Below are positions 8,320 through 57,001 of a stretch of DNA of 64,000 bases, piece by piece (position 1 is the first letter of the stretch; every line of letters starts with the position of its first letter). Below the pieces are notes generated by a model that was not told the origin of the DNA, did not search any database, and saw only the letters and a list, made by a program, of their open reading frames with translations. The position numbers and the translations under genes were made by a program. The stretch is taken from positions 1,426,001 through 1,490,000 of the forward strand of contig NC_014098.1 of NCBI RefSeq assembly GCF_000092905.1, given 5' to 3'. This DNA is from Kyrpidia tusciae DSM 2912. Its GTDB lineage: Bacteria > Bacillota > Bacilli > Kyrpidiales > Kyrpidiaceae.

Positions 8320-10760
8320 TTGCCGTTGAAGTGTTGACAGAACTCCGGGTCCAGGCGGTGGACCGGACGTTTACGTACCGGGTGCCTGAATCCCTGAAGT
8401 CTTGGGCGCTACCGGGTGCCCGGGTGTTGGTCCCCTTCGGGCGGCGGTCGGTGATGGGGATTATCGTGGAGCGGACCGATCCGCAGCTTGCGGAGTCCCT
8501 GGCCGAACTCAAGCCGATCCGGGACGTGCTGGACACGGAACCGGTGGTGCCCGGGGATCTTCTCGAACTCGCCGCATGGCTTTCCGAACGGTATCTGTGT
8601 ACCCGATCCGCGGCTTTCCGCACGGTGTTGCCGCCCGGGGCTTTTGGCAAGGTGAACCGGTATTACGAACCGGGACCCGGAGCCGCAGAGGCGGCCCATA
8701 TCGCCGGAGTTGGCGGCGGGGTGATGGGTCGTTTGGCCCGTAGGCCCCTGTCCAGGGAGCAGCTCTTGGCGGCTTTGGGCGGTGACCTGGGCACCCTGAG
8801 AACGGGGCTTGCCAGGGGATGGTGGGTGGAACGGACCGAGGGCCAAGTGGTCGGACCGAAAACGGTCCGGGTGGCCGTTCCTGTCTTGGATAAGAAATCC
8901 CTCCAGGAAGCCGCTGAGAGGATGCGCGGTCGGGCGCCTCGGCAAGCAGAACTTTTGACTTGGTGGCTCTCCCGGGATCTCGACCCACTCCCCGTCGGGG
9001 AGATGGCCCGGTTGTCCGGTGTCAGCCGGGAGGCGGTGAGCGGACTGGTCAAGCGCGGCCTGGTGCAGTTGGAGTCCCGGGCGATCCGGAGGGACCCGGG
9101 ATCGGGCCGCGACCCGGGGTGGGATACCGGGGAGAGGCCGGAGTTGAATGAAGATCAGCGCCGGGCCTTGGCGGCGATTGTGACCCAGATGGAGGCGCCG
9201 GACCATAGGCCGGTGTTATTGTATGGAGTGACGGGCAGCGGGAAGACCGAGGTGTATCTTCGGGCGATGGAAGAGGCGCTTCGCCGGGGGCGCCGGGCCA
9301 TCGTGTTGGTGCCGGAGATCGCTTTGACCCCACAGACCGTGGCGCGGTTCCGGGGTCGATTCGGGGAGCAGGTGGCGGTCCTGCACAGTCGTTTGTCCCC
9401 GGGGGAGCGCCACGACGAGTGGATGCGACTCCGGCGCGGGGAGGCGGCCGTGGCCGTCGGGGCGCGGTCGGCGATTTTTGCTCCGGTGGACCACCTGGGT
9501 CTGGTCGTCATGGACGAAGAGCACGAGGTGTCGTATAAACAAGAGGAGTCCCCCCGTTATGTGACCCGGGAGGTGGCCTGGAAGCGGGCGGCCCAGCACG
9601 GAGCCGTGTTGGTGCTGGGAAGTGCCACGCCATCCCTGGAGGCGATTCATTTAGTGGAACGGGGACGGGCCGTGTCGACCTCGCTGAAAGAGCGGGTGGG
9701 CGGGCGCCCCCTCCCGCAGTGCGTGGTGGTGGACATGCGCCGGGAACTTCGGGAGGGGAATCGCTCGATGTTTAGCCGTCGACTGGAGCGGGAGATGGCG
9801 GAACGGCTGGACCGGGGTGAGCAGGCGGTTATCCTTATGAACCGCCGGGGCTACAGCACTTTCGTGTTGTGCCGGGCTTGTGGTCACGTCATGCGCTGTC
9901 CTCACTGCGATATCTCTTTGACGTACCACCGGTCTGGGGAAGATTTGCGGTGCCACTACTGTGGGTATACCACCCCCTACGCGGAGACGTGTCCCAACTG
10001 CGGGTCGCCGTACATCCGGTATTTTGGCACTGGGACCCAAAGGGTGGAGGAAGAACTGCGGCATCTCTTTCCCACGGCCGAAATTGTGCGAATGGATGTG
10101 GACACGACCCGGCGCAAGGGGGCTCATGAAGAGCTCCTGGGCCGTTTTGCCCGGGGAGAGGCGAACATACTCCTCGGCACGCAAATGATCGCCAAAGGTC
10201 TCGATTTTCCCAACGTTGGACTGGTGGGCGTCATTTCTGCCGATACTTCTCTGCATGTGCCCGATTTTCGTGCAGCGGAACGCACCTATCAACTGCTCGT
10301 CCAGGTGGCGGGGAGGGCCGGTCGGGGGGACACTCCGGGGATCACGGTCATCCAAACCTACAATCCGGACCATTACGCCATCCGGGCGGCGGCGGACCAA
10401 CAGCCCCGGGTGTTTTACCTCCGAGAGCTGGCCGGCCGGCGCGCCGGGGACTACCCCCCTTTCTCGGAGCTCGCGGTTTGGCGGACAGGACACCCCGAGG
10501 CCGATCGAGCGGCCCGGGCGGCGGGCAGCATCGAACGCCGGCTGAAAGAAGTCCTGCCCCCCGGGGCGGGTCGGGTGCTTCGGGCTGGCCCGGCCCCTCT
10601 GGGACGCCTGCGGGGTTTGTACCGCCACCAGGTGGTGGTGAAATATCGCCAATGGTCGGACGTGGCGGAGGCGTTTCGAGAGGTGTGGCGGGAATCGGCG
10701 GGACTGTGCGATCCCGAAGGATCGGTGAGCGTGGACGTGGCGGCCCAGATGTTGTTGTAG
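8316..10760 (+). CDS. priA: Primosomal replication-restart helicase PriA
   Basis: 814 residues. N-terminal 3'-DNA-binding domain, then helicase core with Walker A GVTGSGKT (304-311) and DEEH (400-403). Zinc-binding cysteine pairs follow in CRACG, CPHCD, CHYCG and CPNCG, and the GTQMIAKGLDFPNV and QVAGRAGRG motifs of helicase domain 2. PriA reloads the replisome at stalled forks. The GTG start overlaps the coaBC stop (GTGA), implying coupled translation; def follows after 59 nt. Confidence 0.97.
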   Translation: MIAVEVLTELRVQAVDRTFTYRVPESLKSWALPGARVLVPFGRRSVMGIIVERTDPQLAESLAELKPIRDVLDTEPVVPGDLLELAAWLSERYLCTRSAAFRTVLPPGAFGKVNRYYEPGPGAAEAAHIAGVGGGVMGRLARRPLSREQLLAALGGDLGTLRTGLARGWWVERTEGQVVGPKTVRVAVPVLDKKSLQEAAERMRGRAPRQAELLTWWLSRDLDPLPVGEMARLSGVSREAVSGLVKRGLVQLESRAIRRDPGSGRDPGWDTGERPELNEDQRRALAAIVTQMEAPDHRPVLLYGVTGSGKTEVYLRAMEEALRRGRRAIVLVPEIALTPQTVARFRGRFGEQVAVLHSRLSPGERHDEWMRLRRGEAAVAVGARSAIFAPVDHLGLVVMDEEHEVSYKQEESPRYVTREVAWKRAAQHGAVLVLGSATPSLEAIHLVERGRAVSTSLKERVGGRPLPQCVVVDMRRELREGNRSMFSRRLEREMAERLDRGEQAVILMNRRGYSTFVLCRACGHVMRCPHCDISLTYHRSGEDLRCHYCGYTTPYAETCPNCGSPYIRYFGTGTQRVEEELRHLFPTAEIVRMDVDTTRRKGAHEELLGRFARGEANILLGTQMIAKGLDFPNVGLVGVISADTSLHVPDFRAAERTYQLLVQVAGRAGRGDTPGITVIQTYNPDHYAIRAAADQQPRVFYLRELAGRRAGDYPPFSELAVWRTGHPEADRAARAAGSIERRLKEVLPPGAGRVLRAGPAPLGRLRGLYRHQVVVKYRQWSDVAEAFREVWRESAGLCDPEGSVSVDVAAQMLL

Positions 10761-10819
10761 CGGTGTTGCAGCCGGGGCGCATCCCGATTGGGGTCGCGCC
10801 GTTAAAGGAGTGAGTTTCA

Positions 10820-11287
10820 GTGGCGATACGAATCATCCGTTTGCAAGGGGATCCGATACTGCGGGAAAAGGCCAAACCGGTCAGCAAGGTCACCCCGAAC
10901 ATTCAGCGGCTGATCGACGATATGGCGGACACGATGTACAATGCCGATGGAATCGGTCTGGCGGCTCCCCAAGTGGGGATTCTGAAGCGGGTCATCGTCG
11001 CAGATATTGGCGAAGGCCTGCTCGGGTTGGTGAATCCGGAGGTCGTATTGGAGGAAGGCGAACAGACCGGGCCAGAGGGTTGCTTGAGCATCCCCGGCAT
11101 CCAGGCGGATGTCACCCGGGCTCATCATGTGATCGTGCGGGCCCAGGATCGGAACGGGGAACCCCTCGTGGTGGACGCCGAGGGACTCCTGGCCCGCTGT
11201 TTGCTCCACGAAATCGACCACCTGGACGGGATTCTTTTTCTCGACCGGGTGACCGATCCGCGTTCCATCCGGAGGGTCGAAACGTGA
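10820..11287 (+). CDS. def: Peptide deformylase
   Basis: 155 residues; removes the formyl group from nascent chains. The three metal-site motifs are complete: [15 protein letters not shown] with Cys88, and HEIDH with His130, Glu131, His134. Start GTG 10820 is 9 nt after AAAGGAG. Followed by fmt with a 4-nt overlap, so formylation and deformylation genes are coupled. Confidence 0.97.
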
Positions 11288-12222
11288 CCAACGTATTGTT
11301 CATGGGCACGCCGGAGTTTGCCGTTCCCTCCCTGAAGGCGTTAGTCAAGGCGGGGTGGAAGGTGGGGGCGGTGGTGACCCGCCCAGACCGCCCGGTGGGG
11401 CGCCGTCAGGTCCCGTCGCCGCCGGCGGTCAAGCGCGCCGCCGAGGAGTTGGGTCTCCCCGTTTGGCAACCCGAACGGGTGAAAGACGGGGAGTTTTTAC
11501 AGCGTGTTCGGGACCTGGCCCCGGAGGTGGCGGTGACCGCCGCCTATGGGCGGATCCTTCCTCAAGAACTGCTCGATCTGCCACCCCGGGGATGTTTGAA
11601 CATCCACGCGTCTCTGTTGCCCAGATACCGCGGGGCTGCGCCGATACAGCGGTGCTTGATGGACGGACAGGACCGGACGGGCATCACCATCATGAAAATG
11701 GTGCAAGCTTTGGACGCGGGGCCGATTGTCGCTCAGGAAGAACTGGCGGTGGGCGAGGAGGATGACGCCGGCACGTTGACCGAGCGCCTGGCCGAGTTGG
11801 GGGCGCGGCTCCTGGTGGACGTGCTGCCGAGATGGTTGGCCGGGGAAATCGAACCCCGGGAACAGGACGAATCTTTGGCCACCTATGCACCTCCCCTTCG
11901 CCGGGAGGACGAGAAGATCGACTGGTCGCAAGCGGCCCTGGCGATCCACAACCGAATTCGGGCTCTGCGCCCGTGGGCGGGTGGTTACACCCTCCACCGG
12001 GGCAAGGTGTTGAAAATTTGGCGGACGACCGTTGAGGAGCGCACCGGGAGTTTCGGCGCACCCGGTGAGATCCTGGTCGTGGAACGGAGCGGGGTGTTGG
12101 TGGCAGCAGGGGCGGGAGCCCTGTGGCTGCACCAGGTTCAGCCCGAAAGCAAGAATCGGATGGAGGCGGAAGCGTGGGCGCGGGGAAGGCGCATCGAAAC
12201 TGGGGAGGCTCTGGGGAAGTGA
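11284..12222 (+). CDS. fmt: Methionyl-tRNA formyltransferase
   Basis: 312 residues; formylates Met-tRNA(fMet) with 10-formyl-THF. The opening [16 protein letters not shown], the catalytic block [16 protein letters not shown] and the C-terminal tRNA-binding domain ([20 protein letters not shown]) are all present. Start GTG 11284 overlaps the def stop (GTGA). A longer in-frame reading beginning at 10810 is only read-through antisense to def's frame and is not the gene. Confidence 0.97.
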
Positions 12223-13679
12223 GCCCGGATGCCCGGGCGGCGAATCCTGTGCGAGACCCGCGGCGCCGGGTTTCGGGGAGGGCAGGGGCGGTATCACCCG
12301 CCCGGCGCGGCGCCTTTGAGGTCCTGCTCCTTGTCGAAGAGCGGCGGGCCTATAGCCACATCGCTTTAAGGCAGGTGTTAAACCGCCTGGGTGCGGACCG
12401 GCGGGACAGCGCCCTGGCTACGGAGATTGTTCAGGGCACGTTGCGGTGGCAGCGATGGCTAGATGAACAGATCAACGCCAAGTCCCGAATCCCCATTGCT
12501 CGCCTTGATGCCGTCGTCCGGGTCACGCTGCGAATGGCGGTTTATCAGTTATATAAACTGCGCCACTGTGCCCCTCACGCCGTGGTGAACGATGCGGTCG
12601 AATTGGTCAAAGGCACTCAGCCCCGGGCCGCGAGTTATGTGAACGGTGTGTTGCGAGCCCTGGAGCGTGAACAACAAACGCCTTCCCCACCCCGGGCCGC
12701 AAGATCCCGGAACGCTCCCGGGAACCCGGAAGAGCTGGCTCGGCGCACCTCCCATCCGACGTGGATGGTGGAACGCTGGTGGTCGTGGCTCGGCCCAGAA
12801 GCGACGATCGCCCTTTGTGAAAGCAACAACGAGCCGCCGCCTCTCACCCTTCGGGTGAACCTTCTGCGCTCATCCGTCGCTGAGGTTATGGAGTCGGTCA
12901 GGGAAGCAGGGGGGGAAGGGCGGCCGTCGCCGGTGATCCCCGGAGTCCTGCGAGTCAGCGGAGTCGACGTTTCCCGTCTGTCTACCTTTCGGTCCGGTGC
13001 TTGCAGCGTGCAGGATGAGAGCGCCACCCTCGCCGCCTGGACCTTGCAACCGGAACCGGGGTGGGAGGTCCTGGATCTTTGCGCCGCCCCGGGGGGAAAA
13101 TCTGCCCATCTAGCCGAGTGGATGAAGGGCACCGGGCGGGTTACCGCAGTGGATATCCATCCTCATAAAATCCCTTTGATCGAGCGGACCGCCCGACGCC
13201 TGGGATTACCAAACGTTCATCCGGTTTGTGCCGATGGGAGAGATGCCCCGTCCCTTGGGATTTTTGACGCCGCCTTGGTGGATGCTCCCTGTAGCGGCCT
13301 CGGGGTGTTGCGACGGCGGCCGGAGTTAAAGTGGCGTCGGCGCCCCGAAGACATTCAGGACCTGGTCAAACTGCAGGGTGAGTTGCTGGCGGCCGCGGCC
13401 AGGGCCTTGCGGCCGGACGGAATATTGGTCTACGCGACCTGCACCGTCTGTGAAGCAGAAAATGATGGGGTCGTGGAGGCTTTTCTGGCAGGGCCCGGGG
13501 GAGCGGCCTTTGATCTCGAAGACCCGGCAGCCCTCTGGCCGGACCCCCTCGGCCAAATGACGCTTTCCACTCGGTTTGGTCGACAGATTCTTCCATTTCA
13601 TTTTGGAGGGGACGGTTTCTATTATGCTCGACTCCGCCGAAAACCCTCGGGGGCTCAAAGGGGGATCCGCCGTGACTGA
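12219..13679 (+). CDS. rsmB: 16S rRNA m5C967 methyltransferase RsmB
   Basis: 486 residues. N-terminal NusB-like domain (about 30-170), then a Rossmann methyltransferase with LCAAPGGKSAHLAEWM, DAPCSGLGVLRRRPELKWRR and YATCTVCEAEND. The two family cysteines (motifs IV and VI) form and resolve the covalent rRNA adduct. The GTG start at 12219 overlaps the fmt stop and lies after GGGGAGG. A proline/arginine-rich, low-complexity N-terminal tail precedes the NusB domain; the true start could be further in. Confidence 0.94.
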   Translation: MSPDARAANPVRDPRRRVSGRAGAVSPARRGAFEVLLLVEERRAYSHIALRQVLNRLGADRRDSALATEIVQGTLRWQRWLDEQINAKSRIPIARLDAVVRVTLRMAVYQLYKLRHCAPHAVVNDAVELVKGTQPRAASYVNGVLRALEREQQTPSPPRAARSRNAPGNPEELARRTSHPTWMVERWWSWLGPEATIALCESNNEPPPLTLRVNLLRSSVAEVMESVREAGGEGRPSPVIPGVLRVSGVDVSRLSTFRSGACSVQDESATLAAWTLQPEPGWEVLDLCAAPGGKSAHLAEWMKGTGRVTAVDIHPHKIPLIERTARRLGLPNVHPVCADGRDAPSLGIFDAALVDAPCSGLGVLRRRPELKWRRRPEDIQDLVKLQGELLAAAARALRPDGILVYATCTVCEAENDGVVEAFLAGPGGAAFDLEDPAALWPDPLGQMTLSTRFGRQILPFHFGGDGFYYARLRRKPSGAQRGIRRD

Positions 13680-15536: not shown

Positions 15537-17467
15537 TCGGACGCTTGCTGGGTGGTCGATATCAGATTGAACAGGCGGTGGGCGGAGGCGGCATGTCGGT
15601 GGTGTACCGGGCACTGGACACCGTCCTGGGGCGCCGGGTGGCTGTCAAGGTATTGCGCAGCCAATTTGGCGACGATGCGGACTTTATCCGCCGTTTTCGC
15701 CGGGAGGCTCAGGCGGCCGCTTCATTATCCCATCCGAATATCGTGAATATCTTTGACGTCGGCACTGACGGGGACGATCATTTTATCGTCATGGAGTACG
15801 TCGAAGGTCATACCCTTAAAGAGTGGATCCAACAGCGGGGACCCCTTCCGGTGGAAGAAGTGGTGGAGATCGGAAGACAAGTGTGCGCGGCCTTGGCCCA
15901 TGCCCACGATCGCGGCATCGTCCATCGAGACATCAAGCCCCATAATATTTTGATCACCGATGCCCGGGTTGTCAAAGTGACCGATTTCGGCATCGCCCGG
16001 GCAATCACGGCGAACACGATTACCTATGCGGGATCGGTGATCGGGTCTGTGCATTATTTTTCACCCGAGCAAGCCCGGGGAGAGATGACTGATATTAAAT
16101 CAGACATCTATTCCCTGGGGGTCGTGCTATATGAGATGGTCACCGGCCATCTGCCTTTCTCCGGGGATTCGCCCATCAGTGTGGCCTTGAAGCACGTGCG
16201 GGAACCCCTGGTGGAGCCTCGCCAACTCATTCCCGGAATTCCCCAAAGTATGGAGAACGTGATTCTGCGCGCCATGGCCAAAAATCCGCTGGATCGGTAT
16301 GATTCAGTTAGAGAAATGGCGGCGGATCTCGATGTCGTCCTCGAACTGAAGGATGTCCCGAAATTCGTTCCCCAGCACGGTGACGGGCAGTCCGAGGAGA
16401 CGCGATTGTACACACCGGTGTCCGGCGCCGAGAACAGTGCTGATCGAAAGGCGGCGGACGAGGCGGCCAAACCCCGGCGTCGCGGCTGGTCTTATGTGAA
16501 ACGGGCGGCATTGTGGACGTTGGCGGTGCTTCTCGTCATGGCGGTGCTGGGGGTTGGGGCGTATTATGCATTTACAACCTGGATGCGGGTGCCCGACGTC
16601 ACCATGCCGAATGTCGTGGGGAAACCTTACGCCGATGCGGTGGCCCAACTCACACAAAGCGGATTTTCTCAAAATAACATCCAGCGGGTGGACATGCCGA
16701 GCAATGCGGTGCCTCCTGGAGCGGTGTTCAAACAAGATCCCGATGCTGGAATTACGGTGAAAGCGAACCGCTCCATTACCCTGTGGGTGAGCATCGGCCA
16801 GGAAACCGTGGCTATGCCGGCGGTGGAAAACATGCCGCTCTCCCAGGCGAAACAACTGCTTAAACAAAACGGGATTCCGGATTCTCAGATCGCGGTGAAT
16901 TATGAGTACAGCGACCAGCCGAAAGACACGGTGATCCGGCAATATCCCCGGGAAGAAGTGGCGGTGGTCCCCGGTAAGGACCAAGTGCAACTGGTGGTCA
17001 GCCAGGGGCCTCAATTGGTGACCGTGCCGAATGTGGTGGGCAGCACGGAACAAGATGCCCGGCAACAGTTGACGGCAGCCGGGTTGACCGTGGGCAAAGT
17101 CCAAACCCAGCCCGATTATAAAGCGCCGAGCGGAGTGGTGATTCAACAGGCGCCTTACAAGCCCGGGGACCAGGTCCCCAAGGGCCGGGCGGTGGATTTG
17201 TGGGTTTCCAGCGGTTATCCCCAAGACGCGAAAACCGCAGTGTTTCCGGTGGCGGTGGCCATTCCGCCCGGTCATCCGCCCGTTCAGGTGAAGATTGTGG
17301 TTACGGACGCCCGAGAGGCCAATCAAACGGTGGTCTCGGAGACGACATCGGTGAGTAAAGTGTATCCGGTGCAGGTGGTTCTCAGCCCGGATACGGGCGC
17401 GGATATCAAGTGGTACGTGGATGGACAGCAACAGGGAGAAAAAGTGATCCCGTACAATGGAACGTAG
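15533..17467 (+). CDS. prkC: PASTA-domain Ser/Thr protein kinase PrkC
   Basis: 644 residues. Cytoplasmic Hanks kinase: glycine loop GGGGMSVVY, ATP Lys39, HRDIKPHN (Asp133), DFG Asp151, activation segment with several Thr/Ser. A single membrane helix follows at about 324-348, then three PASTA repeats (about 354-423, 424-493, 494-560), each starting [VT]-x-[MV]-P-x-V. A C-terminal beta-rich extracellular domain runs from about 565. PrkC senses muropeptides or lipid II and controls germination and cell-wall genes in Bacillus. GTG start at 15533 overlaps prpC; the three-PASTA plus cap layout matches the B. subtilis protein. Confidence 0.97.
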   Translation: MIGRLLGGRYQIEQAVGGGGMSVVYRALDTVLGRRVAVKVLRSQFGDDADFIRRFRREAQAAASLSHPNIVNIFDVGTDGDDHFIVMEYVEGHTLKEWIQQRGPLPVEEVVEIGRQVCAALAHAHDRGIVHRDIKPHNILITDARVVKVTDFGIARAITANTITYAGSVIGSVHYFSPEQARGEMTDIKSDIYSLGVVLYEMVTGHLPFSGDSPISVALKHVREPLVEPRQLIPGIPQSMENVILRAMAKNPLDRYDSVREMAADLDVVLELKDVPKFVPQHGDGQSEETRLYTPVSGAENSADRKAADEAAKPRRRGWSYVKRAALWTLAVLLVMAVLGVGAYYAFTTWMRVPDVTMPNVVGKPYADAVAQLTQSGFSQNNIQRVDMPSNAVPPGAVFKQDPDAGITVKANRSITLWVSIGQETVAMPAVENMPLSQAKQLLKQNGIPDSQIAVNYEYSDQPKDTVIRQYPREEVAVVPGKDQVQLVVSQGPQLVTVPNVVGSTEQDARQQLTAAGLTVGKVQTQPDYKAPSGVVIQQAPYKPGDQVPKGRAVDLWVSSGYPQDAKTAVFPVAVAIPPGHPPVQVKIVVTDAREANQTVVSETTSVSKVYPVQVVLSPDTGADIKWYVDGQQQGEKVIPYNGT

Positions 17468-17489
17468 CAGGAAGAGGGGGGAGAGCGGC

Positions 17490-18386
17490 GTGCCGGAGGG
17501 GGCACAGGGCCGGATTGTCCGGGTGGTGGCCGGATTCTACGACGTAGATCTCAAAGGGCGAACGGTGCGCTGCCGCGCCCGGGGTGTTCTAAAGAAGCGG
17601 GGGATGCATCCCGTGGTCGGAGACGAGGTGCGTGTCCATCTGTCCGGGCTCTCCGAGGGCGTGGTGGAGGACGTGCTGGCTCGGACAAACATCTTGGTCC
17701 GCCCCCCAGTGGCGAACGTGGACTTGGCTGTGCTGGTCTTTTCCATCCGGGAACCCGATCTGAATCGCCACCTTCTCGACCGCCTGCTCGTGTCTGTGGA
17801 GTTGCAAAACGTCCCCGCTTTGCTGTGCTGGAGTAAAGCGGACCTCCTTCAGGACCGGGCCGATTTTGAAAGGGAGGTGTCGGTATACGGGCGATTGGGG
17901 TACCCGACCCTGTACGCGTCCTCCCTGACCGGGGAGGGCATCGATGCCCTTCGCACCCGGTTGCGAGGAAAGGTGAGCGTCCTCGCCGGTCAGTCCGGAG
18001 TGGGCAAATCCAGCTTGATCAACGCTCTGCATCCCGGGTTGAATCGGGCCGTGGGCGACGTCAGCCGGCGTCTGGGCAGGGGTCGCCACACCACCCGGCA
18101 GGTGGAGCTCCTCCGATTGGAAGAGAATACTTATGTCGCCGATACGCCGGGGTTTGGGGTTTTGGCCTTCGACAAGGACTTGGAGCCTGAAAAGCTGTCG
18201 AAGGGATTTCCGGAACTGGTAGAGGTGGGCAGAAACTGTCGATACCGCGGTTGCCTGCACGAAGAAGAGGAGGGGTGCGCGGTCCCCGCGGCCCTGGCCG
18301 AGGGGCGGATCGATCCTTTGCGTTATGACCATTATCGGGAATGGCTGAAAGAACTGCGCGAGGCTCGGGAAGAGCGATACCGCTGA
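17490..18386 (+). CDS. rsgA: Ribosome small-subunit GTPase RsgA (CpgA)
   Basis: 298 residues: OB-fold N-terminus, circularly permuted GTPase with G1 GQSGVGKSS from residue 167, RHTT and DTPGFG, and a C-terminal zinc site (CRYRGCLHEEEEGC). It checks late 30S assembly. I start it at GTG 17490 because MPEGAQGRIVRVVAGFY matches the B. subtilis start MPEGKI and a purine-rich AGGGGGGAG lies just upstream. The ATG at 17457, inside prkC, would add 11 basic residues. Confidence 0.95.
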   Translation: MPEGAQGRIVRVVAGFYDVDLKGRTVRCRARGVLKKRGMHPVVGDEVRVHLSGLSEGVVEDVLARTNILVRPPVANVDLAVLVFSIREPDLNRHLLDRLLVSVELQNVPALLCWSKADLLQDRADFEREVSVYGRLGYPTLYASSLTGEGIDALRTRLRGKVSVLAGQSGVGKSSLINALHPGLNRAVGDVSRRLGRGRHTTRQVELLRLEENTYVADTPGFGVLAFDKDLEPEKLSKGFPELVEVGRNCRYRGCLHEEEEGCAVPAALAEGRIDPLRYDHYREWLKELREAREERYR

Positions 18387-18433
18387 CGATGACCCTTCGT
18401 GAACAGCGGAGATTGTGAAAGGGGGCATGGACG

Positions 18434-19099
18434 ATGAGAAGATCGGTGATGATGGCGCCGTCGATCCTGTCGGCGGATTTTGCCCGATTAGCCGAAGAAG
18501 TGGAATCGGTGACCCGGGCGGGAGCGAATTGGATTCATGTGGACGTGATGGACGGGCAGTTTGTTCCAAATATTACGATCGGGCCGCCGGTGGTGGCGAG
18601 TCTCCGCAGGGTCACCGATTTGCCCTTGGATGTGCATTTGATGATTGCCAATCCGGATCGCTATATTGAGGATTTTGCCCGGGCCGGGGCGGACCGAATC
18701 ACCGTCCATGTTGAAGCTTGTCCACATCTGCACCGAACGATCCAGAGTATCCGGGCGACAGGGGCGAAACCCGGGGTTGCTCTCAACCCGGCCACGCCGC
18801 CCGAAATGGTGCGCTGGGTGTTGGAGGATGTGGAGTTGGTTTTGGTCATGACGGTCAACCCCGGGTTCGGAGGACAGGCGTTTCTTCCTCGAACGGTGGA
18901 GAAAATCCCTCTTTTGCGAGAATGGGCAGGGGATCGGGACGACCTTTACGTCGAGGTGGATGGGGGGATCGATCCTTCAACCGCTCCCAAGGCGGTGAAG
19001 GCGGGGGCCGATGTGCTGGTGGCCGGCTCAGCGGTGTTTGGACGGGCGGACCGAAAAAAAGCGTTGGGCGATATCCTGGAGGCGATTGCACACATTTAG
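18434..19099 (+). CDS. rpe: Ribulose-phosphate 3-epimerase
   Basis: 221 residues, TIM barrel of the pentose phosphate pathway interconverting ribulose-5-P and xylulose-5-P. MAPSILSADFARL, HVDVMDGQFVPNITIGP, VHLMIANPD, VMTVNPGFGGQ and EVDGGID carry the metal-binding His and Asp residues. Start ATG 18434, 8 nt after AAGGGGG. The thiN gene that follows rpe in B. subtilis is absent; spoVM comes next. Confidence 0.97.
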   Translation: MRRSVMMAPSILSADFARLAEEVESVTRAGANWIHVDVMDGQFVPNITIGPPVVASLRRVTDLPLDVHLMIANPDRYIEDFARAGADRITVHVEACPHLHRTIQSIRATGAKPGVALNPATPPEMVRWVLEDVELVLVMTVNPGFGGQAFLPRTVEKIPLLREWAGDRDDLYVEVDGGIDPSTAPKAVKAGADVLVAGSAVFGRADRKKALGDILEAIAHI

Positions 19100-54717: not shown

Positions 54718-55818
54718 ATGAACGTGTTGTCGATCGTGGTACCAACCTATAACGAGAATCAAACGGTACGCCTGCTGATCGACCAACTGGAGGTAGCCCT
54801 GCGAGGACTTTCCTATGAAGTCATTTTTGTTGATGATAGCAGTGACAACACCCCGGAAGTGATCGCCCAATTGTGTGCCGATCACCCTCGGGTGCGCTGC
54901 ATTCACCGCGAGGGTCAGCGAGGCTTGGCCACGGCTGTGCTAGAAGGGTTTCGGATGGCCCGGGGTTCGGTCTTGGCTGTCATGGACGCCGACTTGCAAC
55001 ACCCTCCTGAAGTCCTGCCCAGGATGTACCGCGAGATCGAACAGGGGGCCGACGTGGTCATCGCCAGTCGCCATCTGCCGGGTGGAGACGACGGGGGATT
55101 ACACGGGGTTCGCAGGGTGATTTCTCGAACGGCTCGAATGATCGGGAAAGCGGCGCTGCATCGGGTCCGTTCTGTCAGCGATCCAATGAGCGGTTTTTTT
55201 ATGATTCGGCGCCAAGTGATTGACGGCGTGCACCTGAACCCCGTGGGTTGGAAGATCCTCATGGAGATTGTGGTCAAGGGGAGGTATTCGCACCTCGTTG
55301 AGATTCCGTACGCTTTTCGACCCCGGGCTGCCAATGAATCGAAGATGAGCCCGGCGGAGATCATTCATTACTTGCATCATGTCGCCCGGCTGGTGGTGCA
55401 ATCTCCGGAAGATCGAAGGTTTTGGTTATTTGCACTGGTAGGCATCAGCGGGGTGGCCGTGAATACACTTTTATTTGCTCATTTGACGAAATGGAATATT
55501 TTCCCGGAAACAGCCGCTTTTGTTTCCGGCTCGTTGGCGATGATTTGGAACTTCGCATGGAACTGCGGATTGACGTGGCGGGATGCCCCGCAAAGTGATC
55601 CGTTGGCGGTGACCTTTGCCAAATTTGCCGCGGTGGCCCTAATCGGCATTGCCGTCAACTTGGTCGTGCTCAGTGTGCTGTTCCGGCTCCTGGACGTTCC
55701 AAAACAATGGGCGAACCTAACGGGGATTATCGGAGGAGCTTTGGTGAATTACCGATTAAACGATCGGTGGACCTGGCGGAGAGTGGGAGACAAACGGCCG
55801 CGAATGCGAGTGTCCTGA
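54718..55818 (+). CDS. Dolichyl-phosphate-mannose-synthase-like GT2 fused to GtrA membrane domain
   Basis: 366 residues. Residues 1-220: GT2 domain of the DPM1 type, with VVPTYNENQT, FVDDSSDNT, DADLQHPPEV (DxD motif) and SDPMSGFFMIRR. Residues 240-360: four-helix GtrA domain (LFALVGISGVAVNTLLF, ...FVSGSLAMIWNFAWN, ...ALVNYRLNDRWTW). Such fusions transfer a sugar from a nucleotide donor to polyprenyl phosphate and may flip it. ATG 54718 after CCAGGAGG. Followed by a PIG-V-like mannosyltransferase, which suggests polyprenyl-P-mannose as product; donor sugar not proven. Confidence 0.88.
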   Translation: MNVLSIVVPTYNENQTVRLLIDQLEVALRGLSYEVIFVDDSSDNTPEVIAQLCADHPRVRCIHREGQRGLATAVLEGFRMARGSVLAVMDADLQHPPEVLPRMYREIEQGADVVIASRHLPGGDDGGLHGVRRVISRTARMIGKAALHRVRSVSDPMSGFFMIRRQVIDGVHLNPVGWKILMEIVVKGRYSHLVEIPYAFRPRAANESKMSPAEIIHYLHHVARLVVQSPEDRRFWLFALVGISGVAVNTLLFAHLTKWNIFPETAAFVSGSLAMIWNFAWNCGLTWRDAPQSDPLAVTFAKFAAVALIGIAVNLVVLSVLFRLLDVPKQWANLTGIIGGALVNYRLNDRWTWRRVGDKRPRMRVS

Positions 55819-55873
55819 TTTATGCGGGTGAACTGCGGCGGGAGTTCGGCGTGGGAAGAAATGAGGTGACGGC

Positions 55874-57001
55874 GTGAATCGGGGGCGGGAATGGGCGTAT
55901 GCCGCCGGATCTTTTGTTTTACATAAAATTGTCGTATGGGGCGGAAGTATCTTGTTCAGCATGGAGAAACATCCGGTTGCCCCGCTGACGTCCTTTTTAC
56001 AATACGCCCTGATCCAGAATTTCAGCCGCTGGGATACGCAATGGTACATCGGAATTGCCGCCCACGGATATCGCCCCGCCTCGGCGGCCTTTTTTCCGTT
56101 GTTTCCCTTTCTGATTCGGTACGTCCACCAGTGGACCGGGCTTTCGTACGTCGAAAGTGCCTGGGGGGTTGCAAACGTCTTTTTCTTTTTTGCCCTGTAC
56201 ATCACGGCGAAGCTCTTCCTGCTGGACCAACCTCCCCGGACTGCGTGGCGGGCGTTGGTGCTGATGGTGTTCTTTCCGACCGCGTTTTTCTTTGCAAGCG
56301 GGTATACCGAGCCAGTATTTCTGTTTTTTACCGCTGGGAGTCTCTACTACGCGAGGACCGGGCGTTTCTGGACGGCGGGATTTTTCGGGATGTTCGCGTC
56401 GTTGACCAGAAACACCGGCCTGGCCTTGGTGTTACCGTTTTTATACGAGTATTTTCGACGGCGGGGATTTCGTTGGCAGGGGGTTGGCCCAGATTTGGCG
56501 GCCGTTGCATTAATACCGGCTGGACTTGAAATCTACATGGGTTTGTTAAACGCAAAGCTCGGCGATCCGTTAGCTTTTGTACACGCCCAGCAAAATTGGA
56601 AGCGAGCATTCATGTGGCCTTGGGATACGCTTCGGCTCGGCACCCTCGAGTTGTGGGTCAAGCCGTTGCGCGGTTGGTCATGGATCATCCGGGCGTTTAC
56701 CGTCGGGGTGGTGTGGGCCGAGTTGGCCCTTGTGGCCCTGGCTTTGCCCTTTCGACGCTTGCGCATTCCCGGCAGTTACTATCTTTTTGCCCTGGTCTCC
56801 GCAGTCGTTCCGCTGCTTTCCCCGGCTCGCGACTGGTACTTTCTAAGCATCTCTCGGTTTGTTCTCGTGCTATTTCCGTTATTCTTGATTGCCGCCCGCA
56901 TGTTGAAATTTCGAGTGCTGTTTTACGCCGCCTGTGCCGCGGAGGTGGCGGGGATGTTGCTGATCCTTGAGAACTTTAGCAAAGGGTACTTTGTGGCGTA
57001 G
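55874..57001 (+). CDS. PIG-V-like membrane mannosyltransferase
   Basis: 375 residues with about nine hydrophobic helices. SRWDTQWYIGIAAHGY and FFPLFPFLIRYV near the N-terminus match the luminal-loop signature of GPI mannosyltransferase 2 (PIG-V, GT76) homologues; GYTEPVFLFFTAGSLYYAR and LTRNTGLALVLPF follow. Would use polyprenyl-P-mannose made by the preceding gene to mannosylate an extracytoplasmic acceptor that I cannot name. GTG 55874 after GAGGTGA. Its 3' end overlaps niaR (convergent) by 26 nt. Confidence 0.82.
   Translation: MNRGREWAYAAGSFVLHKIVVWGGSILFSMEKHPVAPLTSFLQYALIQNFSRWDTQWYIGIAAHGYRPASAAFFPLFPFLIRYVHQWTGLSYVESAWGVANVFFFFALYITAKLFLLDQPPRTAWRALVLMVFFPTAFFFASGYTEPVFLFFTAGSLYYARTGRFWTAGFFGMFASLTRNTGLALVLPFLYEYFRRRGFRWQGVGPDLAAVALIPAGLEIYMGLLNAKLGDPLAFVHAQQNWKRAFMWPWDTLRLGTLELWVKPLRGWSWIIRAFTVGVVWAELALVALALPFRRLRIPGSYYLFALVSAVVPLLSPARDWYFLSISRFVLVLFPLFLIAARMLKFRVLFYAACAAEVAGMLLILENFSKGYFVA

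Follow-up and report, generated by a model that had tools for sequence, protein, structure and literature searches.

A predicted two-gene unit for mannosylation outside the cell in Kyrpidia tusciae: a putative type III polyprenyl-phosphate-mannose synthase beside a PIG-V-like GT-C glycosyltransferase

The DNA analysed here (the window) is a stretch of 64,000 bases, corresponding to bases 1,426,001-1,490,000 of the 3,384,766-base contig of Kyrpidia tusciae DSM 2912. The available text of the genome paper describes this organism (strain T2, DSM 2912) as a thermophilic, hydrogen-oxidising Gram-positive spore former (PMC3236038). Two adjacent genes, here called A and B, will be discussed (Table 1). 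Gene A begins with ATG at 54718, preceded by the sequence AGGAGG, and ends with TGA (55816-55818); gene B begins with GTG at 55874 and ends with TAG (56999-57001), the two being separated by 55 bases on the same strand. A comM-like Mg-chelatase gene is located upstream of the pair, while downstream lie, in this order, a convergent 3H-domain regulator, the frame of which runs 26 bases into the 3′ end of gene B, nadA and an aminotransferase class V gene. The coordinates of the two reading frames, as well as their surroundings, agree with an initial annotation, which had also noted that no acceptor gene stood alongside; no acceptor-like gene adjoins the pair.

Table 1. Features of the A-B gene pair (positions in the window)
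Feature	Position	Strand	Description
Gene A	54718..55818	+	Predicted type III (GT2 + GtrA) polyprenyl-phosphate-mannose synthase, 366 aa; PF00535, PF04138 and 5mlz match
GT2 catalytic domain of gene A	54730..55221	+	Residues 5-168; PF00535, 125 bits (cut-off 23.3)
GtrA/DPMS transmembrane domain of gene A	55429..55776	+	Residues 238-353; PF04138, 84.8 bits (cut-off 26.1)
Gene B	55874..57001	+	Predicted polytopic glycosyltransferase of GT-C type, 375 aa, its motifs resembling those of PIG-V; PF04188, AlphaFold2 model, fold matches
RWDTQWY motif of gene B	56027..56047	+	Residues 52-58; includes Asp54, likely catalytic (by GT-C topology)
FFPLFP motif of gene B	56090..56107	+	Residues 73-78; F73, P75 and P78 invariant in 75/75

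Both genes are conserved in the relatives G398, G399 and G400, with identities of 95, 82 and 68%, respectively, for gene A and 94, 77 and 59% for gene B. The dN/dS ratio (Nei-Gojobori) is 0.06-0.21 in the five computable comparisons of A and B, dS being saturated for gene A versus G400, which therefore yields no ratio. PF04188 and PF04138 are each found once in the K. tusciae genome. Among the stretches of equal length sampled in the window, none has a lower G+C content than the pair (54718-57001), at 0.554 compared with a mean of 0.605 (sd 0.019); membrane-protein codons or a foreign origin could account for this.

Gene A had been annotated as a fusion of a GT2 domain with a GtrA membrane domain, and the Pfam search bears this out, PF00535 and PF04138 both scoring above their curated cut-offs. 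A GT2 domain joined to a four-helix membrane domain is the architecture called type III in the available text of PMC5526996. The closest relative among solved structures is the full-length dolichyl-phosphate mannose synthase of Pyrococcus furiosus (PfDPMS; 5mlz, E 1.1e-80, residues 4-354), ArnC and GtrB being much weaker relatives (E 1.8e-18 to 4.8e-12) that cover residues 4-254 at most. NCBIfam returned several sugar transferase matches for A, all of them below cut-off.

Twelve active-site residues of PfDPMS were compared with gene A by sequence alignment to 5mlz, the PfDPMS residue numbers being assigned by hand from this alignment, and 11 of them proved identical: Glu12 (E13 in A), Asp39 (D40), Asp89 (D90), Asp91 (D92), Gln93 (Q94), His94 (H95), Arg117 (R118), Arg131 (R132), Ser135 (S136), Arg202 (R203) and Lys208 (K209). 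They include those of the motif DADLQH, which occupies residues 90-95 of A. According to the available text on PfDPMS, Asp91 and Gln93 bind the metal and the diphosphate, Asp89 and His94 contact the mannosyl group, Asp39 contacts guanine, the acceptor phosphate site consists of Ser135, Arg117 and Arg131, and the closing loop of Arg202, Lys208 and Glu12 (PMC5526996). Across 16 aligned A proteins ten of the 11 residues are invariant, the eleventh, S136, being conserved in at least 90%. The position of His94 is occupied by Asp in GtrB, by Asn in ArnC and by His in A. Gene A, homologous to PfDPMS over its full length, has both the type III architecture and the PfDPMS active site. It differs from PfDPMS in being bacterial, in having a GT-C gene next to it in the same direction, and in the sole mismatch among the 12 residues, Trp178 in place of the gate residue Phe177.

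From this active site, and from the ManC-type genes that adjoin A in four genomes besides that of K. tusciae, we infer that the sugar handled by A is mannose; the mannose proposed initially gains support from both. ManC is the recurring link among the neighbours. The four genomes are G442 and G410, where B is present, and G346 (L100) and G151 (L101), which contain no B homologue. A WecA/TagO-like gene is found together with the ManC-type gene by A in G442 and G410, both assignments in G410 being made by membership in the same clusters as G442. In K. tusciae, locus L079 carries manA (TIGR00218, above cut-off) and, 218 bases on, a sugar-phosphate nucleotidyltransferase gene, the top NCBIfam match of which, below cut-off, is mannose-1-phosphate guanylyltransferase. 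Judged by these matches, it is the best candidate for GDP-mannose synthesis among the five NTP_transferase genes found in the genome; the remaining four are read as RmlA, GalU and GlmU (by eye) and one gene without assignment.

Gene B scores 44.7 bits with the PIG-V profile (PF04188; cut-off 22.4), residues 45-185 of the protein matching positions 53-205 of the 443 in the profile, and this is its sole Pfam match at E 1. NCBIfam gave a match to AZOBR_p60025 only, below cut-off. No solved structure is related to B by sequence at E 10, and scanning named genomes with the one protein B gave no match. The RWD and FFPLFP motifs are, we assume, signatures of PIG-V. All 75 aligned B-family sequences agree at eight positions, including Asp54, Pro75, Pro78 and Arg328 (this alignment starts at residue 2, so its own numbering is one lower). 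Asp54 is also invariant in 23/23 sequences of a second alignment (A1, comprising 23 of the 30 B-search sequences; the seven weakest were omitted and are hence absent from the tree described below).

An AlphaFold2 model of B made with the 75-sequence alignment reached a pLDDT of 94.0 and a pTM of 0.93. A fold search with this model (Foldseek, VIA-align 2) gave AglB and Pmt4 (Z 20.4 each), ALG12 (19.7), ArnT and Pmt1-Pmt2 (19.4 each), GPI mannosyltransferase I (15.9) and PimE (12.4), where rows no more than one Z unit apart count as ties; nearly all of the 50 VIA matches listed, with Z from 20.4 down to 10.9, are GT-C proteins. At the sequence level, PF04188 is matched by 67/75 B-family members at E 0.01, PMT_2 also by 28/75, and PF09594 (GT87) by 5/75. 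On the strength of the model, gene B is securely placed in the GT-C fold. Its membership of GT76 is not secure, because the PF04188 match is of half length and because of those members that also match PMT_2. The initial label of "PIG-V, GT76" therefore holds for the profile match above cut-off and the two motifs, and less surely for the family. In the model, Asp54 follows helix 2-28 and stands at the start of helix 53-63. Given the GT-C topology, with an acidic residue in the first outside loop (available text of PMC6801728), Asp54 is likely the catalytic acidic residue of that loop, and would presumably face the outside.

The distribution of the two genes was surveyed in 61 relatives and in 398 genomes of the phylum, the own genome being included in both sets. 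Among the relatives, full-length A occurs in 10, B (E 0.001) in 11 and both in 9, adjacent in 7. In the phylum set A (E 1e-40) is found in 12 genomes, a count that may be low since at most five candidates were scored per genome, B in 17 and both in 8, again adjacent in 7. By chance A and B would be expected together in 1.8 of the 61 and in 0.5 of the 398, a statistic which ignores kinship. The non-adjacent exception in the phylum set, G397, has a GT2 match without the GtrA part and a weak B on the same contig. A without B was encountered in G438 of the 61 and in G015, G151, G183 and G346 of the 398; in G183 the GT-C gene adjoining A is of the PMT_2 type and not B-like. G183 has two A homologues (L097 and L104), both close to a GT-C gene of the PMT_2 type; the match to the second contains one stop.

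A scan of named genomes, from which 78 of 394 matched loci were kept (four of the 78 were omitted from alignment A4 for length or a broken frame), placed full-length A next to B in five: Kyrpidia sp., an Alicyclobacillaceae MAG, Desulfovirgula, Desulfofundulus and Firmicutes HGW-8. Three of these five are genomes already counted, the Kyrpidia sp., Alicyclobacillaceae MAG and Firmicutes HGW-8 loci being copies of G399, G400 and G161. In another 2/78 a GT2 gene without a GtrA match adjoins B. Beyond the Bacillota, B relatives have no A next to them; none of the actinobacterial and chloroflexal B loci among the 78 has a full-length A nearby, and in a few a GT2 gene with a weaker match lies at a distance of 0.2 to 4.6 kb.

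Over all sets, the adjacent pair is present in 15 distinct genomes, with A preceding B in five, B preceding A in eight and the two genes divergent in two. Adjacency kept despite changed gene orders is the best evidence for a joint function of A and B; at the level of the genus it is partly shared ancestry. In a tree of 94 B proteins (built without L105, L106 and L109, which duplicate L026, L027 and L008), 14 of the 15 paired rows fall within one 17-row group with a support of 91 by a quick method; the fifteenth, L021, lies outside it, and a separate group of three has an adjoining GT2 gene lacking a GtrA match. In the tree of 24 A proteins, those from pairs fall to the same side of a weakly supported branch (59/82). 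Clustering of the neighbours in 21 stretches (the window plus 20 fetched ones, most of 20 kb) revealed no third partner shared beyond close relatives, with the exception of one family in 6/21 stretches, by eye ABC-transporter ATPases; a few other families join two or three stretches.

We consider it likely that A and B form a two-gene unit for extracytoplasmic mannosylation, A making polyprenyl-phosphate mannose and B using it outside. At the cytoplasmic face, the GT2 domain of A would transfer mannose from GDP-mannose to polyprenyl phosphate, presumably undecaprenyl phosphate since the host is bacterial. The fused four-helix GtrA domain would then hold the lipid and probably aid its crossing of the membrane, and B, with Asp54 in its first outside loop, would move the mannose from the lipid to an acceptor outside. 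The proposal is based on domain identity, active-site identity, the GT-C fold and conserved adjacency, drawn from sequence and model; B would use the product of A. Flipping of the lipid by the GtrA domain is something we infer, since the P. furiosus enzyme retained comparable activity when its membrane domain was removed, and the function of the domain was left open in the available text of PMC5526996. The donor-plus-transfer system read by the initial annotation finds support, at the level of sequence, in the profile matches that it predicted and in the co-occurrence of the pair in relatives. Against such a unit stand the wider B family, most of which has no A nearby, the genomes with A but no B, and three further GT-C genes (PMT_2) of K. 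tusciae, which could use the same lipid.

Gene B resembles PIG-V (GPI mannosyltransferase 2, GT76) in its above-cut-off match to PF04188 and in its GT-C fold; it differs in that its 375 residues match the N-terminal half of the profile only. We know of no GPI pathway in bacteria. PimE and other actinobacterial users of polyprenyl-phosphate mannose transfer mannose outside from a polyprenyl donor. The fold of PimE (9dm5) is common to B, whereas PimE belongs to a different sequence family, GT87, the profile of which is matched by just the five B-family members given above. Multi-component transmembrane glycosylation systems consist of a GT-A enzyme, a GtrA protein and a GT-C enzyme (available text of PMC8035078), and the pair has all three parts, as do the Gram-positive systems CsbB-GtcA-YfhO, GtlA-GtcA-GtlB and CsdCD-CflA. 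In contrast to these, the GT-A and GtrA parts are fused here, the GT-C enzyme is PIG-V-like, the sugar is predicted to be mannose, and the K. tusciae genome gave no match to the polymerase families of classical teichoic acids. The pair is in this reading a compact form of a known sugar-decorating system with two of its three parts fused. The terms "PIG-V", "PF04188" and "fusion" are absent from the available text of the review (PMC8035078), and the literature text available to our search contained no description of this A/B pair. If the proposal is true, the donor enzyme for a PIG-V-like GT-C protein comes from the neighbouring gene, a two-gene module suffices to test mannosylation outside by such an enzyme in a simple bacterial membrane, and mannose joins the sugars of the Gram-positive transmembrane glycosylation systems, in an organism whose genome showed none of the usual polymerase families for teichoic acids.

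The same lipid-linked mannose might be made for other enzymes. A could supply polyprenyl-phosphate mannose to the three PMT_2 GT-C proteins encoded elsewhere in the genome, with B drawing on another lipid-linked sugar or pool and the adjacency being mainly inherited. The PMT_2 neighbours of A in G183, which has no B, and the many B relatives without an adjoining A speak for this arrangement. It is nevertheless unlikely, as one of the three PMT_2 genes comes with a GT2 and a DUF2304 gene of its own, and the adjacency of A and B persists across 15 genomes and three gene orders. The identity of the sugar may also be questioned: like GtrB or CsbB, A might be a polyprenyl transferase for a UDP-hexose or UDP-HexNAc, in which case B would add that sugar to a surface polymer. 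Characterised Gram-positive systems of like plan carry GlcNAc, galactose or glucose, according to the available text of PMC8035078, and the NCBIfam matches of A, below cut-off, are to several sugar transferases. We regard a sugar other than mannose as quite improbable, however, in view of the 11/12 residues shared with a mannose synthase, the differing residues of GtrB and ArnC at the mannosyl-contacting His, and the ManC-type genes by A in four genomes.

A further question concerns the acceptor and arises within the preferred reading of a mannosylation unit, with which it overlaps. B may be a protein O-mannosyltransferase acting on secreted proteins or lipoproteins, for which its model matches Pmt4 and Pmt1-Pmt2 and the 28/75 family members matching PMT_2 can be cited. 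We treat this choice as a possible, less favoured one: the lipid-acceptor enzymes ALG12 and ArnT are tied with these matches, within about one Z unit, and the sole Pfam match of B at E 1 is to PIG-V, a lipid-acceptor family.

The likeliest acceptors of the proposed unit are a membrane glycolipid or lipoglycan and a secreted or surface glycan or protein. The initial list of targets had comprised glycolipid, teichoic acid and protein, and of these teichoic acid has become unlikely. PF00884 (LtaS type) and PF04464 (TagB/F type) have no match in the K. tusciae genome, while the B. subtilis control among 14 control genomes was positive for both; neither LtaS-type lipoteichoic acid nor wall teichoic acid of the TagB/F type is therefore a likely acceptor, though both are possible, and other polymers may serve. 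The lack of matches to both families in a Gram-positive genome suggests unusual or absent teichoic acids. A speculative and rather doubtful extension is that Kyrpidia, and perhaps other Bacillota without LtaS and TagB/F, use the pair to build a mannosylated membrane lipid or lipoglycan, which would be a bacterial counterpart of luminal GPI mannosylation and, much as actinobacterial lipomannans do, would take the functional place of lipoteichoic acid.

Two other observations were made in a separate stretch of the genome (L186). The protein encoded at 17022-18581 on the reverse strand carries Ig-like domains in addition to three SLH domains, and the available text of the genome paper reports no protein coat (PMC3236038). 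A set consisting of a GT2 gene, one of the three PMT_2 GT-C genes and a DUF2304 gene is located at 10643-12986, also on the reverse strand (about 3,206,600-3,209,000 of contig C1 of the K. tusciae genome, G000). With GacJ presumably being a DUF2304 protein, this set looks like one of the GacI-GacJ-GacL type, and like a second, separate system in K. tusciae.
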